A stretch of DNA of 53,383 nucleotides from IMG/VR virus record IMGVR_UViG_3300044701_003267, positions 1 through 53,383 of that record; one strand, given 5' to 3'. The stretch is from a virus. Positions 2,313 to 44,862 of this stretch are shown here, in pieces (position 1 is the first letter of the stretch; the number at the start of each line of letters is the position of its first letter). The translations under genes were made by a program, and so were the position numbers. The notes beneath the pieces were generated by a model. That model had not been told where the DNA came from. It saw only the letters and a list, made by a program, of their open reading frames with translations, and made no database searches.

Positions 2313-4214
2313 TTATTCCTTCTTTTCTGTAAACGTAGCATCTACTACGTTATCATCGGATGGATTATTGCCGGTTGCTTCTTGAGCTGGCTGACTTTCT
2401 TTAGCCTGCTTTTTTTCTAACAGAGTTTTCATTGCCGGATAAACTTTGTTAAGTTCTTCTGTGATCTTATCTTTGTCGTCGCCCTTTGTGGCTTCTCCAA
2501 CAGCATTGATAACATCCTCAAGTTGCTTAACTTCATCTTCAGTAAGTTCGCTACGATACTCTTCAAGATCTTTTTTAACTTCGTGCATCTGAGCTTCAGC
2601 TGAATTCTTAGTATCGATTAGTTCTCTAGCTTTCTTATCTGCTTCGGCATTAATCTCAGCATCTCGAATCATTTGTTCAATTTGTTCTTTGCTTAGACCG
2701 GAATCAGACTTGATGGTGATCTTATTTTCTTTGCCTGTATTTTTATCTTTGGCAGAGATATTCATGATGCCATTGGCATCAACATCGAAAGTAACTTCGA
2801 TCTGCGGAAGTCCTCTACGGGCCGGAGCAATGCCTTCTAGATTGAATTCGCCTAACAGTTTATTGTGTTGAACGAGTTCTCTTTCTCCCTGGACCACTTT
2901 GATAGTCACGGCAGGCTGATTATCTTCAGCCGTGCTGAATGTCTGACTTGCTTTGGTAGGAATCGTAGTGTTCTTTTGAACCAGTTTAGTCATTACTCCG
3001 CCTAACGTTTCGATACCTAAACTCAGAGGAGTAACGTCAAGTAACAATACGTCATTGCGATCGCCGCCCAACACAGCACCTTGGATAGCAGCACCAACTG
3101 CTACTGCTTCGTCTGGGTTTACATCTTTGCGTGGTGCCTTACCGAAAAGTTTCTCAACTTCTTCTTGCACTTTAGGCATACGTGTCTGACCGCCAACAAG
3201 AATAACTTCGTCAATGTCAGCAGCAGTAACACCTGCGTCTTGCATAGCGATGCGGCAAGGAGCCAGTGAACGATTAATAAGATCTTCGACCAGGCTTTCT
3301 AATTTTGCCTTTGTTAATTTTACTACTAGATGCTTAGGACCACTTGCATCGGCTGTGATGTAAGGTAAGTTAACTTCTGTCTGTGTGCTGTTTGATAATT
3401 CAATTTTGGCTTTTTCAGCAGAGTCTTTTAAACGCTGAAGAGCTAATACATCTTTAGTTAAATCAACGCCTTGTTCTTTCTTGAACTCCTCGACCAAGTA
3501 GTCCATAATGCGTTGATCGAAGTCTTCACCACCTAGGAATGTGTCGCCATTCGTTGACAATACTTCAATTTGTTTGTCGCCATCTACATTCGCGATTTCA
3601 ATGATCGATACATCGAAAGTACCGCCACCAAGATCGTAAACAGCAATTTTTCTGTCAGCTTTATCTTGCTTATCAACACCATAGGCCAATGCAGCCGCTG
3701 TTGGTTCGTTGATGATACGCAGAACTTCTAAACCTGCGATCTGTCCCGCATCTTTGGTTGCTTGACGTTGTTGATCGTTAAAGTAAGCAGGCACAGTGAT
3801 CACTGCTTTAGTTACTTCTTGACCAAGATAATCTTCTGCGGTCTTTTTCATTTTACGAAGAACTTCTGCAGAAATCTGTGGAGGTGCCAATTCTTTGCCC
3901 TGTGCTCTAACCCATGCATCGCCGTTTTTACTTTCCATAATTTCGTATGGCATCAGGTCGATGTCTTTTTGTACAGCCTGTTCTTTAAACTTACGTCCAA
4001 TCAATCGCTTGGCTGCATAAATTGTATTTTTGGGGTTAGTGATCGACTGTCTTTTCGCCGATGCACCTACAAGGATTTCGTCGTTGGCATAGGCAACGAT
4101 ACTAGGTGTAGTACGAGTACCTTCTGAATTTTCAATAACTTTGGAAGTTCCATTCTCGACGATAGCCACGCAGGAATTGGTGGTGCCGAGGTCAATACCG
4201 ATGATCTTAGACAT
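2313..4214 (-). CDS. dnaK: Chaperone DnaK (Hsp70), full length
   Basis: An ATP-driven chaperone of 633 residues, close to bacterial DnaK length. The nucleotide-binding domain begins [19 protein letters not shown]. Further motifs are [12 protein letters not shown] near 170, [11 protein letters not shown] near 197 and [11 protein letters not shown] near 340. The substrate-binding domain includes [20 protein letters not shown]. The lid is followed by a tail ending [12 protein letters not shown] rather than the E. coli EEVKDKK. No DnaJ or GrpE gene is in the window, so it may use host partners. A late-type GATAAATA box lies 75 nt upstream (4290-4297) and the leader carries the SD-masking hairpin shared with hsp20. 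A complete DnaK is unusual cargo for a phage. Confidence 0.97.
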
Positions 4215-4914: not shown

Positions 4915-5934
4915 TTATTTTACAAATATATCGTTGATCTGTCTGTTCACACGAATAAATGTGGTACATTTGGATAATTGTTTTAGACTAGGAGCTCCGA
5001 CATAGGTACAGGTACTGCGTAAACCACCTAAAAGATCTAATACAGTATTCTGCACCGGACCTTTGTATTTTACTTCTACAGTGCGTCCTTCTGAACTACG
5101 ATATTCAGCAACACCTCCACTGTGTTTATTCATAGCAGTGTCTGAACTCATTCCGTAAAATGTTACTTTGCCGTCTTTGATTTCGCCACCGCCTTCGTCG
5201 TGTCCTGACAGCATACCGCCTAGCATTACAAAGTCCGCGCCAGCGCCGAAAGCCTTAGCAACATCACCAGGGCAAACACATCCACCATCAGCAATAATAT
5301 GAGCGCCAAGACCGTGAGCGGCATCGGCACACTCAATGATAGCACTAAGCTGTGGGTAGCCCACACCAGTTTGGATACGAGTAGTACAAACGCTACCAGG
5401 GCCAATGCCCACTTTAATAATATCTGCGCCACGTAAAATTAACTCCTGTGTCATATCTGCGGTAACCACATTACCGGCGATAATAGTTATGTGAGGATAT
5501 GCTTGTCTAACTTTAGAAACATATTCTCCAAAATGTTCACTGTATCCGTTAGCTACATCGATACAGACGAAATGAATTTCTGGATAAGAATTTACTATCT
5601 GTCTTAGTTTAAGAAAATCTTTGTCACTGGTTCCTGTGCTGACGGCAAAATAATTTCCGCCAAACTTACCTGTTAGATCAAAAAGATCGTCTTCAGCATA
5701 GCTCTTAACCAGACAAGTAAACATCTGATGTTTATACAATTTTCGAGCCATATCTATTGTACCCACACCGTCCATATTGGAAGCCATGATAGGTACACCG
5801 GTCCATTCAAAGCCACTGTGTCTAAATTTATATGTTCTTGTAAGATCTACTTCTTTGCGACTACTTAGAGTAGAACGCTTTGGTCTGATGAGCACATCAC
5901 GGAAGTCTAGCTTGACTTCATCTTCGATACGCAT
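4915..5934 (-). CDS. guaC: GMP reductase
   Basis: Converts GMP to IMP with NADPH, linking guanine and adenine nucleotide pools. The 339-residue protein begins [21 protein letters not shown], the GuaC signature start. The catalytic cysteine loop is [20 protein letters not shown] (about 178-197), with [20 protein letters not shown] near 214-233. It lacks the CBS domains of IMP dehydrogenase and has the shorter GuaC length. It starts 12 nt after the bS21 gene stop. In a phage it would rebalance purines for DNA synthesis beside NrdAB, which is inference. Confidence 0.93.
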
Positions 5935-14875: not shown

Positions 14876-14926
14876 TAGATTTTTTCTAAATATTTTTTTA
14901 TGACGATCATAGGAAAAATCAATAAC

Positions 14927-14954
14927 GAAAAGAAAGCGGCCCGAAGGCCGCTTT
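14927..14954 (-). terminator. Terminator of the tmRNA
   Basis: AAAGCGGCC-TTCG-GGCCGCTTT on the minus strand: a perfect 9-bp stem with a UUCG-type tetraloop, followed by a T-rich tail (CTTTTCGTT). It lies about 45 nt after the tag stop codon and ends the tmRNA transcript. Confidence 0.9.
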
Positions 14955-14960
14955 ACTATT

Positions 14961-15275
14961 TTGGTTGACAAGGCATAGTTGCCCCGGAGTGGCAGTTTCT
15001 TAGGCTGCTAGAGCGAATCTACCTTCATTAGCTGCACCAACGGTGTTGCCTGTGAAGTTCAATGCGCCAAACTCAAATGTATCTGCGTTTGCATTTACGT
15101 TTTTTGCTTCTGCGACCGGGTTACTCCAATCCTACGGGTTCTGCTTTCCCGAGCTGTCCACTCTGTTACTCTTTGCCCTGTCGAAACCATGTACACCCCC
15201 AACGCAGGATACTTTTAAAATATCCTCCGGTGGAGGTGGGGAGATTCGAACTCCCGTCCAGAACACTTTTCTCTT
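14961..15275 (-). ncRNA. ssrA: Circularly permuted (two-piece) tmRNA
   Basis: Minus strand, in order. First the acceptor piece, with T-arm GGGAG-TTCGAAT-CTCCC and 3' acceptor strand CACCTCC followed by ACC (15229-15255). Then a short spacer with a GGATA...TATCC hairpin. Then the 5' acceptor strand GGGGGTG (15194-15200) followed by the tmRNA-specific GTACATGGTTTCGACAGGG, then the tag frame ending GCTCTAGCAGCCTAA (stop 15000-15002). The two acceptor strands pair over 7 bp with one G-U. This order, 3' half before 5' half, is the permuted form known from alphaproteobacteria, some betaproteobacteria and cyanobacteria. Outer ends are approximate. It begins just after the DUF454 gene stop. Confidence 0.9.
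15000..15092 (-). other. tmRNA proteolysis tag reading frame (about 30 residues)
   Basis: From the probable resume codon GCA at 15092 the frame reads ANADTFEF..., then NTVGAANEGRFALAA and stop. The ALAA end is the ClpXP-type degron found in E. coli and many others. The same frame stays open upstream to another GCA at 15112, so the tag is 30 or at most 37 residues. Most tags are about 10-20 residues, so this is long. Confidence 0.75.
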
Positions 15276-15296
15276 TGCTTCATACAGCAATAACTT

Positions 15297-15707
15297 TTAT
15301 TTAATCCAACCTATCTTTTCGCCAGCATCTTTGCGACGATCATGTTCTTCTGGAGTATTTGGATATCTCCAGGCCCAAACAGCGACCAATGCCATAAACA
15401 CTGCTGTTGAAATAATACCGATAAGTTTTACCCCACCTGTCCACATTAGTATAAGGCTTAATGACATCATTGTCAACATCAAATAACGTAGTTTTTGAGG
15501 AAAAACTCTTTTTTCGCTCCAATTGGTTAAAAATGGTCCGAAAATCTTATGATTGTAAATCCAACGATGCATACGCTCACTGCCCTTAGAAAAACAATAA
15601 GCTGAAAATACAATAAACGGGCTGTAAGGAATTCCAGGTGTGATCAATCCGATATAGGCCAGTCCTAAACTAATAAATCCTAAAACATTCCAAAATAATT
15701 TTTTCAT
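15297..15707 (-). CDS. DUF454/YbaN-like inner-membrane protein
   Basis: The ATG at 15707 (three bases after the PAAR stop) gives 136 residues. The first hydrophobic segment contains LGFISLGLAYIGLITPGIPYSPFIVFSAYCFSKGSER, the DUF454 signature, and another membrane stretch follows at about 80-110 (LMLTMMSLSLILMWTGGVKLIGI). Function of the family is unknown. Its stop lies about 40 nt before the tmRNA T-arm region, so the tmRNA may also be transcribed from this operon. Confidence 0.85.
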   Translation of the reverse strand: MKKLFWNVLGFISLGLAYIGLITPGIPYSPFIVFSAYCFSKGSERMHRWIYNHKIFGPFLTNWSEKRVFPQKLRYLMLTMMSLSLILMWTGGVKLIGIISTAVFMALVAVWAWRYPNTPEEHDRRKDAGEKIGWIK

Positions 15708-15709
15708 TT

Positions 15710-15973
15710 TTATCCCGCAAATACATCTGATGAACCTGTCGCAGCGTGTCCGCAACTGGCTGTGTCTCCTGCTCGGCATACCGGTATATTATGAGCGAAA
15801 ACAGTTCCGCTAGCACCTACCATAACAGGGCCGCTGTGAGGTGATCTTCCGTGACCAGATATGGCCGCTCCCTTAACTACTATAGGTGCATTATTGACAA
15901 AGACCGTAGGTGCAAGATTACCGACTATGGTACCTCCTGCTTGATCTACCCCTACTCTTGAGATTCCTGGCAT
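15710..15973 (-). CDS. PAAR-domain spike-tip protein
   Basis: An 87-residue glycine/valine-rich protein with repeated PAAR elements (GNLAPTVFVNNAPIVVKGA, SGHGRSPHSGPVMVG, ASGTVFAHNIPVCRAGD) and a late CGHAATGSS. Histidines and cysteines would bind the tip metal. PAAR proteins cap the membrane-piercing spike of contractile tails (T4 gp5.4 type), so the phage is probably a myovirus. It sits between a coiled-coil protein and the DUF454 gene. Confidence 0.92.
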   Translation of the reverse strand: MPGISRVGVDQAGGTIVGNLAPTVFVNNAPIVVKGAAISGHGRSPHSGPVMVGASGTVFAHNIPVCRAGDTASCGHAATGSSDVFAG

Positions 15974-40066: not shown

Positions 40067-40488
40067 TCTGTTCGATCCTTGTCATCTATGGCGCCACCTG
40101 TGACCCACGCTGTACAACTACGGTCGCCAGCGCATTTAAAATGTAAGAAGTTGCAGTAACCTAAGTCTGCCTTGTGTATTGTAGCCATAGCATCTGCATC
40201 CTTTTCATCGCCCTTGATACCCGATTCTATACAAGCCCACATCTTGTCTGAAACATCAAAGGCTGCACAATTACCACACAGCATAGTCTTAGCAGTCTTT
40301 TCTGTAATGTTCCAACGCTTGGCAGCATCCTTCCAGTACGACTCTGGCTCATCTGGATTAGCAGGACCGTAGTGATATTCATCTATAGCCTTCTGACGAT
40401 TCTTTAGATTAACATCTATGTCGTAGGTAGCAATAGGACAGCCTTTGTTGGCTGCTTCTACTATGTTGATATATTTTCTGTAGATCAT
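40063..40488 (-). CDS. Cysteine-rich virion-type protein
   Basis: 141 residues. It starts MIYRKYINIVEAANKGCPIA. The C-terminal half has cysteines in CGNCAAFDVSDKMWACIESG, DLGYCNFLHFKCAGDRSCTA and W, a spacing recalling small iron-sulfur or zinc proteins. The same arrangement occurs in several large phages (memory). It is coupled to the neighbours on both sides (4-nt overlaps), so it belongs to the tail/virion operon. Confidence 0.75.
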   Translation of the reverse strand: MIYRKYINIVEAANKGCPIATYDIDVNLKNRQKAIDEYHYGPANPDEPESYWKDAAKRWNITEKTAKTMLCGNCAAFDVSDKMWACIESGIKGDEKDADAMATIHKADLGYCNFLHFKCAGDRSCTAWVTGGAIDDKDRTE

Positions 40489-41864
40489 CTCTGTTCAATC
40501 CAAGTCATTGTAGCCACAGCATTTTTGTTAGCGTTTCTAGCCGCAATGGCTAGAGTTAGTGTGTCGCTGACTGTGCCCAAACTGCTGCGTCCAATCTGAT
40601 AGACTGTGTCAGTGTCTATCCTAATAGGGCCGCCACCACTGTTGGCAGTGATCATACCACTGTCTAATGAAGAGCCATCTGTGATAGCACCTGTGCTGGT
40701 ATAGTTGTATTGCGTGAACGCATTAGTGTCGGGATGATCTGTCCAAGTTCCGTTGACTGTGGCATTACGTATAAGTTTATAGTAGATGTCAGTGTTGTCC
40801 AATGTGCTGGCTTGGAAGTATGTGGGAATCACAATGCCTGTCAGTGCTGTGCTTTTCATTCTAATGCTGAGCACAGGGTAAAATGTGTTAGCGGAAGGTA
40901 GGTTAATACCAGTTAGTGGTGTTAGTATGTTTTCAGCAATACCTAGTTTTTCCACACTACCTTCTACTAATAGACTATTTGATCCTTGCCACATATAGTG
41001 TGTGCCGGCAGCACCGCCAAAGTTTTCAATCTCTAGTCTAATGGGTAAGAAAGGTGTTTTACTCCACGGACTCTTAAGTCTGTTGCCGTTGTTGACTACG
41101 TGTATTACACGGGGGAATCCGTTGATCACCCAGCTGAATACAATCTGTCCAGCACCATACCACTCATATTCAACACTAATAACTTGTTGTGCGTCAGGTA
41201 CTGCGGTGATGCCGCTTGGACCAGTGCCATCTAACTTATCGCCATTCCAATCTTTGCGATAGATTCTCTCTACAGTAGGAGTAGCACCATCGCTGTTGAT
41301 TACCACTACAGCATATTGTGGCTCGCCTGTGTCTGGATCCACTGTGCCACAATCTTCAAAATAAAATCCATCACTGCCGTCATACATTCCTAGTCTGCGT
41401 CTAACTCCAGTTACGGGCATTTCAAATCTAACAGCAAAAGAAATGTTCTGTGCTCTACCTGGAGTATAGCGTTGTACGTTGCGAGTCTGTCGTATAACTT
41501 TAGATCCTACAGTGCTAGAGACGCTCATAGCAATTTGGCTTAGGGTAGCGTCAAATACTGCTGAGCCACCTGATGTAGTACTTTCATCCCAGACATCTGT
41601 TTCTTTACCGTATTGGAATGTGTTAAAGAATATAGTTTCCTGTGTCTGGACTTTGAGACGACCTTTGCTATCAACCGTAGATATGACTCCATTGCCGGGT
41701 CCAGATCCTGTTAAGTCTGCCTGTACTCTTATTATTGGCTCGCCGACACCATTGTAGTCCATTGCACGATGCAATTCTTGTAGATTAGGATCGCTAGCGT
41801 GTGTGTAGTTGGTGGTGTCCCAAGGTTGTTCGCTGGGGTTTAATCGTTGTCCGTTAAATGCCAT
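40485..41864 (-). CDS. Tail or baseplate structural protein
   Basis: 459 residues, beta-rich, with repeated glycine-containing strands. A lectin/concanavalin-like middle is suggested by RRRLGMYDGSDGFYFEDCGT, VISVEYEWYGAGQIVFSWVI and PIRLEIENFGGAAGTHYMWQ. The N-terminus MAFNGQRLNPSEQPWDTTNY is a phage structural-protein-like start. Likely a tail or fibre-associated surface protein. It lies in a compact virion-gene operon. Confidence 0.8.
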   Translation of the reverse strand: MAFNGQRLNPSEQPWDTTNYTHASDPNLQELHRAMDYNGVGEPIIRVQADLTGSGPGNGVISTVDSKGRLKVQTQETIFFNTFQYGKETDVWDESTTSGGSAVFDATLSQIAMSVSSTVGSKVIRQTRNVQRYTPGRAQNISFAVRFEMPVTGVRRRLGMYDGSDGFYFEDCGTVDPDTGEPQYAVVVINSDGATPTVERIYRKDWNGDKLDGTGPSGITAVPDAQQVISVEYEWYGAGQIVFSWVINGFPRVIHVVNNGNRLKSPWSKTPFLPIRLEIENFGGAAGTHYMWQGSNSLLVEGSVEKLGIAENILTPLTGINLPSANTFYPVLSIRMKSTALTGIVIPTYFQASTLDNTDIYYKLIRNATVNGTWTDHPDTNAFTQYNYTSTGAITDGSSLDSGMITANSGGGPIRIDTDTVYQIGRSSLGTVSDTLTLAIAARNANKNAVATMTWIEQR

Positions 41865-43938: not shown

Positions 43939-44275
43939 AACGATCCTCAACATAATCCGCAGTCCCGACTTCTAAGATCACTGAATTAGGATGCAGAGCT
44001 TCGATCTGATGCGGGCTGAGCTCTGCGAAATCTGCGGTCTTACCTTCTTCTAGAATAGCTTCTTTGATTTGACCAGTGGCCACATCTATGTAAGTTACCT
44101 TGAATCTCCCGGCATTGACAAACCAGCTCTTTCTTTTTTCTTTATGGAATACCATACTGGTTTTGGCACCTACCTTGGTAAACACCAGTAGTTTGCCGCA
44201 GTAACTTTCATTGTTACTCCATATGATTTCAAATCCCCAGCCCTTGTCTATTTTTCCTGCTTTCTGTAGGTTCAT
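43880..44275 (-). CDS. Cupin-domain protein (mannose-6-phosphate isomerase type II-like)
   Basis: 131 residues. [40 protein letters not shown] and [20 protein letters not shown] show the two cupin motifs with metal-binding His/Glu. It resembles the C-terminal cupin of bifunctional sugar-nucleotide enzymes and sugar-phosphate isomerases. Its last 59 nt run antisense through the ALAS 3' end. It is coupled to clpP upstream by 4 nt. Confidence 0.85.
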
Positions 44276-44862
44276 GGTCTTTTCTCTATGATTTTATCTA
44301 CGAGCCCGTAGTCTAATGCTTCTTGTGCTGACATAAACTTATCTCTTTCCATATCCGCAGAAAACATTGCAAATGTTTTATCTTTGCTGTTATGCTTGAC
44401 ATAGATCTCAGTGAGATTCTTTTTCATTTTTAAAATTTCTTCAGCCTGTATCTGAATGTCTGTGGCCTGCCCACGAGCTCCTCCGCTGGGCTGATGAATC
44501 ATATGACGAGCGTTAGGCAGCATATGTCTTTTACCTGCTGCACCTGCCTGGGCTAGCAATGATCCCATAGAACAGGCCTGCCCCATTACATAGGTGGCGA
44601 CATCTGGTTTGATAAACTGCATCGTATCATAGATGCTCATACCTGCTGTGACTACGCCACCTGGACTGTTTATGAACAGACTAATGTCCTTGTCTGGATT
44701 TTCACTTTCTAAAAATAACAGTTGGGCTACGACCAAATTCGCCATATAATCTTCTATAGGGCCGTTCAACATAATTATTCTTTCTTTGAGCAGTCTACTG
44801 TAGATATCAAAAGCACGCTCGCCTTTTGATGTAGACTCAATAACCATTGGTACCAATGCCAT
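44272..44862 (-). CDS. clpP: ATP-dependent Clp protease proteolytic subunit
   Basis: 196 residues with the full catalytic triad: S98 in [16 protein letters not shown]123 in MIHQPSGG, D170 in [36 protein letters not shown] is the oxyanion strand and glycine-rich loop. A tetradecameric protease core needing a ClpX/ClpA unfoldase, none of which is in the window, so it must use the host's. With phage ClpS and tmRNA it suggests directed protein turnover. Confidence 0.95.

Follow-up and report, generated by a model that had tools for sequence, protein, structure and literature searches.

A two-piece phage tmRNA gene encodes a long bipartite tag with a conserved N-terminal module

Introduction

ssrA tags are generally regarded as short signals set by host proteases. 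The locus described here raises the question of why a phage tmRNA should carry a long tag and how such a tag would be read. The window, i.e., the whole stretch of DNA analysed in this study, comprises the 53,383 bases of an IMG/VR virus record and has 41% G+C. In the tmRNA database, the commonest tag length is 10 aa (PMC11915505), and permuted tmRNAs have already been published in phages, as described for Methylophage Melnitz (PMC9004378). A sequence-only reading of the window regarded the permuted gene itself as rarely noted in phages. This did not hold, given that publication and the abundance of such genes here: a motif of 33 bases from the tRNA-like domain alone occurred in at least 119 viral stretches. 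The more notable feature is the conserved bipartite tag.

Results

The virus carrying the tmRNA gene

The window encodes virion structural and tail-type proteins, which support its assignment to a tailed phage. Its 459-aa protein (40485-41864) matched PHROG 1645 (E 2e-127) and showed >50% identity to structural proteins of T4-like cyanophages. A contig of 75.7 kb (G018) was near-identical to the window and added ca. 20 kb, and related contigs with tmRNA reached 280-353 kb; the window thus probably represents part of a larger genome. Other genes of the window include a 5-aminolevulinate synthase, a haem-pathway enzyme unusual in a phage (42733-43938, plus strand; 568.8 bits against a cut-off of 338.55), a full-length DnaK/HSP70 (2313-4214, minus strand; PF00012, 845 bits), and a GMP reductase (4915-5934). 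The longer contig additionally has a second, divergent ClpP-like protease and putative curli genes, CsgG-like and with curlin-like repeats as judged by eye (locus L355, 2601-3194 and 16083-17758).

Identification and anatomy of the two-piece tmRNA gene

ARAGORN called a permuted tmRNA (tmRNA*) with a 30-aa tag, ANADTFEFGALNFTGNTVGAANEGRFALAA, at 14909-15320. Among the Rfam models, RF04321 (tmRNA_permuted) scored 105.5 bits (gathering 47; 15000-15289) and RF01850 (beta_tmRNA) 104.5 bits (gathering 84; 14931-15338), while the alpha (RF01849) and cyano (RF01851) tmRNA models stayed below gathering on this RNA. The three calls agree with the sequence-only proposal of a two-piece phage tmRNA, and all lie on the minus strand, which that proposal had left unstated. 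By these model matches, the window tmRNA is of the two-piece, betaproteobacterial subtype. Its elements and neighbours are as follows.

15297-15779, minus strand: DUF454 gene directly upstream of the tmRNA (PF04304, E 9.6e-29)
15448-15476, minus strand: promoter-like TTGACA-17-TATACT lying within the DUF454 gene, called from the consensus alone
ca. 14928-15303, minus strand: precursor extent of the permuted (two-piece) tmRNA gene (ARAGORN, RF01850, RF04321, and element positions)
15229-15290, minus strand: 3' tRNA-like half (Rfam models, acceptor pairing, and element positions)
15239-15255, minus strand: T-arm (element order)
15229-15238, minus strand: 3' acceptor strand CACCTCC plus ACC, the terminal A of CCA not being encoded
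15201-15228, minus strand: spacer separating the acceptor halves (position by sequence)
15194-15200, minus strand: 5' acceptor strand GGGGGTG, which pairs with CACCTCC and has G3 of G3-U70
15176-15189, minus strand: D-like TGGTTTCGACAGGG
15000-15092, minus strand: tag reading frame from the GCA resume codon to TAA, giving the tag above (ARAGORN and sequence)
15039-15092, minus strand: 18-codon N-terminal tag module, ANADTFEFGALNFTGNTV (64 distinct coding sequences, pN/pS)
15000-15032, minus strand: host-like C-terminal tag ANEGRFALAA and stop (resembles the 10-aa phage tags AND..FALAA)
14928-14954, minus strand: GC hairpin with T-run, read as an intrinsic terminator, as the 3' terminal hairpin of a beta-type tmRNA, or as both

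The promoter-like site is a weak candidate, 5 such sites being found in comparison with 3.2 expected. On the minus strand, the T-arm and the 3' acceptor strand precede the 5' acceptor strand, and the separated halves are complementary over 7 bp, both as the sequence-only reading had it; the 7/7 pairs include G3-U70. The same pairing with G3-U70 was found in 184 of 185 parsed phage or viral sequences, the window included; the one exception looks like a misparse. Six compensated versions of the stem occurred among the 184, and since the compensated changes keep the seven pairs and G3-U70, the split stem appears, on sequence alone, to be under selection. The RNA folded with a z-score of -5.6 relative to shuffles, and its tag frame has a resume codon, a stop, and a hydrophobic-AA end. 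The gene very probably specifies a functional tmRNA, from which the spacer is expected to be removed by processing as in known two-piece tmRNAs.

Two parts of the tag and constraint on the module

The tag had been described as unusually long with an ALAA end, ca. 30 residues and up to 37. The ALAA end and the 30 residues are borne out by ARAGORN, and no support was found for 37. Among the matches listed for the 33-base motif, 89 of 104 called tags were of 10 aa. The 30 residues consist of the 18-residue module, a two-residue linker, and ANEGRFALAA, which by itself looks like a complete ordinary tag.

On viral contigs, the module was present in 64 different coding sequences, which specify 46 different tags; it had 18 codons each time and was followed by a variable remainder of 8 to 13 residues. 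Relatives fetched via the neighbouring DUF454 gene, not via the tag, mostly carried the same module. Linkers and ends varied among relatives (e.g., ANDSRFALAA, SGKSKVALAA, and GGRVALAA); in the module, A1, F13, N16, and V18 were invariant, and every intact module tag ended in Ala-Ala, preceded at -3 by Leu or Val. The exact window tag occurred in eight loci. Broken tags were seen in other assemblies: one contig of the same virus (L026, also L148), with 98% identity to the window across the tmRNA stretch, lacks 54 bp that include the degron and the tag stop, and L290 goes out of frame through an 8-base repeat, GATACATT, near the beginning of the module. These broken tags could reflect true variation or errors of assembly; the main result is unaffected, since the exact tag recurs in eight loci. 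In the L002 group, the ARAGORN tag ADAELVAA was rejected as the product of a mis-set start, the frame reading ANAFKPEVTVPVSIFADAELVAA.

In the 64 coding sequences, pN and pS of the module were 0.10 and 0.36 in the tag frame (ratio 0.28), and in the other two frames, which are full of stops, pN was above pS. This set came partly from a motif scan that selects the FTGNTV codons, and the calculation was hence repeated with 26 coding sequences obtained without the motif; the ratio was 0.345, and 0 of 200 column shuffles were as low, a count that is not a strict probability since the sequences are related. Variation by codon position was 4.04 at the third versus 1.81 and 1.12 at the others. These results indicate purifying selection on the encoded peptide, and the module is likely read as a peptide.

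Distribution and genomic context of the module

A pattern of TGGTTTCGAC plus module codons matched 99 viral stretches and 13 stretches in 84,980 bacterial and archaeal species genomes. None of the 13 cellular matches was a permuted tmRNA with the module according to ARAGORN. Five were one-piece tmRNAs of Bacilli or Clostridiales with other tags (GNKIKNAFASLFRSNSVALAA type); the remaining eight received no ARAGORN tmRNA call, and two of these (L228 and L238) were on inspection plainly not tmRNA. As the pattern recovers 30 of 42 known module tmRNAs (sensitivity ca. 70%), the cellular absence is good but incomplete evidence. A host search with the exact T-arm gave 0 matches in genome contigs.

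The tmRNA gene starts near position 15297, where DUF454 has its stop codon, and extends to the GC hairpin with its T-run; DUF454 lay upstream on the same strand in 121/121 module tmRNAs with a checkable neighbour. On a DUF454 tree, phages with short tags at the same locus were interspersed among the module phages, so the tag seems to have been repeatedly lost or exchanged and the module appears dispensable or exchangeable. A single origin of the module was unsupported on this tree, which required 13 changes, no fewer than with shuffled labels.

Searches for a source of the module among phage proteins gave chance matches only (blastp-short, all six-frame segments of the fetched loci), no match of weight was found in the PDB, tblastn against 50,697 phage records found none, and a literature search yielded no match. 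The module is apparently confined to phages, as a conserved peptide accompanied by phage ClpP. Long extensions unlike the module were observed in other phage tmRNAs, for example ANVNKTVTVSGKNIKFSARSAKEALAV. Those of L095, L076, L110, L137, and L168 (e.g., TVTVSGKNIKFSAR) suggest that tag extension arose repeatedly in phages.

Protease and rescue partners

The window also encodes a ClpP.

44272-44862, minus strand: phage ClpP peptidase, 196 aa (PF00574, E 2.4e-83)

It scored 319.7 bits with the subfamily model NF001368, above the cut-off, and fell just under that of the equivalog TIGR00493 (301 vs 308.6). It matched solved bacterial ClpP structures, and its Ser, His, and Asp motifs (GQACSMG, MIHQP, and ERDKF) were intact. 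ClpP was encoded in 21/24 tmRNA-bearing virus records, window included, a count that is not independent evidence because the records largely represent one related virus group. Since ClpP also occurred in phages with plain 10-aa tags, it is evidence for tag-and-destroy overall rather than for what the module does. A ClpA-type unfoldase was found in five of the six records over 280 kb (G001 to G005) and a ClpX-type protein in three (G003, G004, and G022); those inspected had apparent IGF-type ClpP-docking loops, as judged from sequence. One record combined a module tag, ClpP, and ClpA (G001), and another had a module tag and ClpA, ClpP not being found (G002).

SmpB, which a complete phage-encoded trans-translation system would include, was found in 0/24 of these records, some of which are fragments, while the positive controls were detected; SmpB would therefore have to be the host's. 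Neither Lon nor SspB was found in the 24 records.

Discussion

The window RNA shares with two-piece betaproteobacterial tmRNA (RF01850/RF04321) the permuted order, the 7-bp split acceptor stem with G3-U70, the T-arm, the resume region, and the 3' hairpin, its terminal A not being encoded; it differs in its 30-aa tag with an 18-aa module, where 10 aa is the most frequent length (PMC11915505). Like Melnitz and the pelagimyophages, the present virus is aquatic and T4-like and has a complete permuted tmRNA, and curli-like genes, here in the near-identical contig, are a further likeness. However, the RNA of Melnitz belongs to the alphaproteobacterial type and lies with a glutamine riboswitch, whereas the window RNA is of beta type; a tag module like that of the window is not described in the passages on Melnitz consulted here (PMC9004378). 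Xanthomonas jumbo phage XacN1 also has a permuted tmRNA, with the 12-aa tag ANANTFDYALAA; this tag resembles residues 1 to 8 of the module with ALAA added and has no FTGNTV part. In the XacN1 isolate, the gene is unannotated and occurs in two copies (L363 1473-1893; L367), and it adjoins two CUA-anticodon tRNAs. Sinorhizobium phage Phosso (L366) likewise has a permuted tmRNA (RF04321, 113 bits, 603-base span), which ARAGORN did not call.

On balance, we consider it probable that the phage tags proteins for proteolysis by borrowing host SmpB and that its tag holds an additional recognition element. The intact, two-piece ssrA gene of betaproteobacterial type would give a transcript that is cut into two RNAs joined by the acceptor stem and charged with alanine via G3-U70. 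Host SmpB would then be used to rescue stalled ribosomes in the infected cell, and the bipartite 30-residue tag would be added to the stalled chains. The ANEGRFALAA half presumably acts as an ordinary Clp-type degron, through which phage ClpP with host ClpX or ClpA could degrade the tagged chains; in the larger relatives, phage ClpA or ClpX may instead serve as the unfoldase of ClpP. The N-terminal 18 residues would be a phage-specific peptide that most probably gives a protease or adaptor a second element to recognise. That tagging leads to proteolysis is quite likely.

Among the specific rivals, the strongest draws on the Mycoplasma parallel: the aromatic-rich module would act as a Lon-type degron, and the extension would switch or add a protease. 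In Mycoplasma, an extended tmRNA tag with extra protease determinants is read by Lon, with which it co-evolved (Ge and Karzai 2009 and Gur and Sauer 2008, cited in PMC11986505). Phe and hydrophobic residues are frequent in the module, and other phage tags carry different long hydrophobic extensions. However, the Mycoplasma system is cellular, and the window tag, unlike it, keeps the Clp-type ALAA end. To our knowledge, the module is unrelated in sequence to the Mycoplasma tag. With no Lon in the 24 phage records, Lon would have to be the host's, and we regard this reading as unlikely. It is rather improbable that the tag marks chains rather than destroys them, the module altering the fate of tagged chains or the tagging reaction, for instance by slowed proteolysis, action in the ribosome exit tunnel, or recruitment of a phage protein. 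A strongly conserved peptide with no source detected in the searched phage proteins or solved structures and no literature match would fit this, but the constant Ala-Ala end preceded by Leu or Val and the usual presence of ClpP argue against it.

The module could also have been retained for the RNA, as a spacer or structural element, given that it lies within a structured RNA, always has exactly 18 codons, and is missing from short-tag versions at the same locus. The concentration of variation at third codon positions and the low pN/pS in the tag frame only make this improbable. Titration of host SmpB or competition with host tmRNA has been suggested for mycobacteriophage DS6A, whose tmRNA consists of the tRNA domain only, and a molecule with little beyond the tRNA-like domain inhibits tmRNA (PMC4131195). 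By analogy, such a main role would be in keeping with the lack of SmpB in the 24 records, but a complete and constrained tag frame would then be unnecessary, which makes it very improbable. As the matching clade-specific model is betaproteobacterial, the ultimate origin of the tmRNA is probably bacterial. A recent host-gene capture or an assembly contaminant is nevertheless hardly credible in view of the same tag in eight loci, the DUF454 context of every checkable module tmRNA, and the failure of the cellular scan, at its limited sensitivity, to find a module-bearing genome.

Because the module is short and simple to exchange, a direct search for its partner is feasible. Tentatively, a widespread group of aquatic phages may run a tag-and-destroy pathway of their own, in which a specific protease or adaptor, possibly phage ClpAP or ClpXP, reads the module and the fate of stalled proteins is separated from the host ssrA pathway. 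A long, conserved tag module present in many phages and not found in the searched cellular genomes, together with the usual ClpP and, in large genomes, ClpA or ClpX, suggests that phages redirect ribosome-rescue proteolysis.
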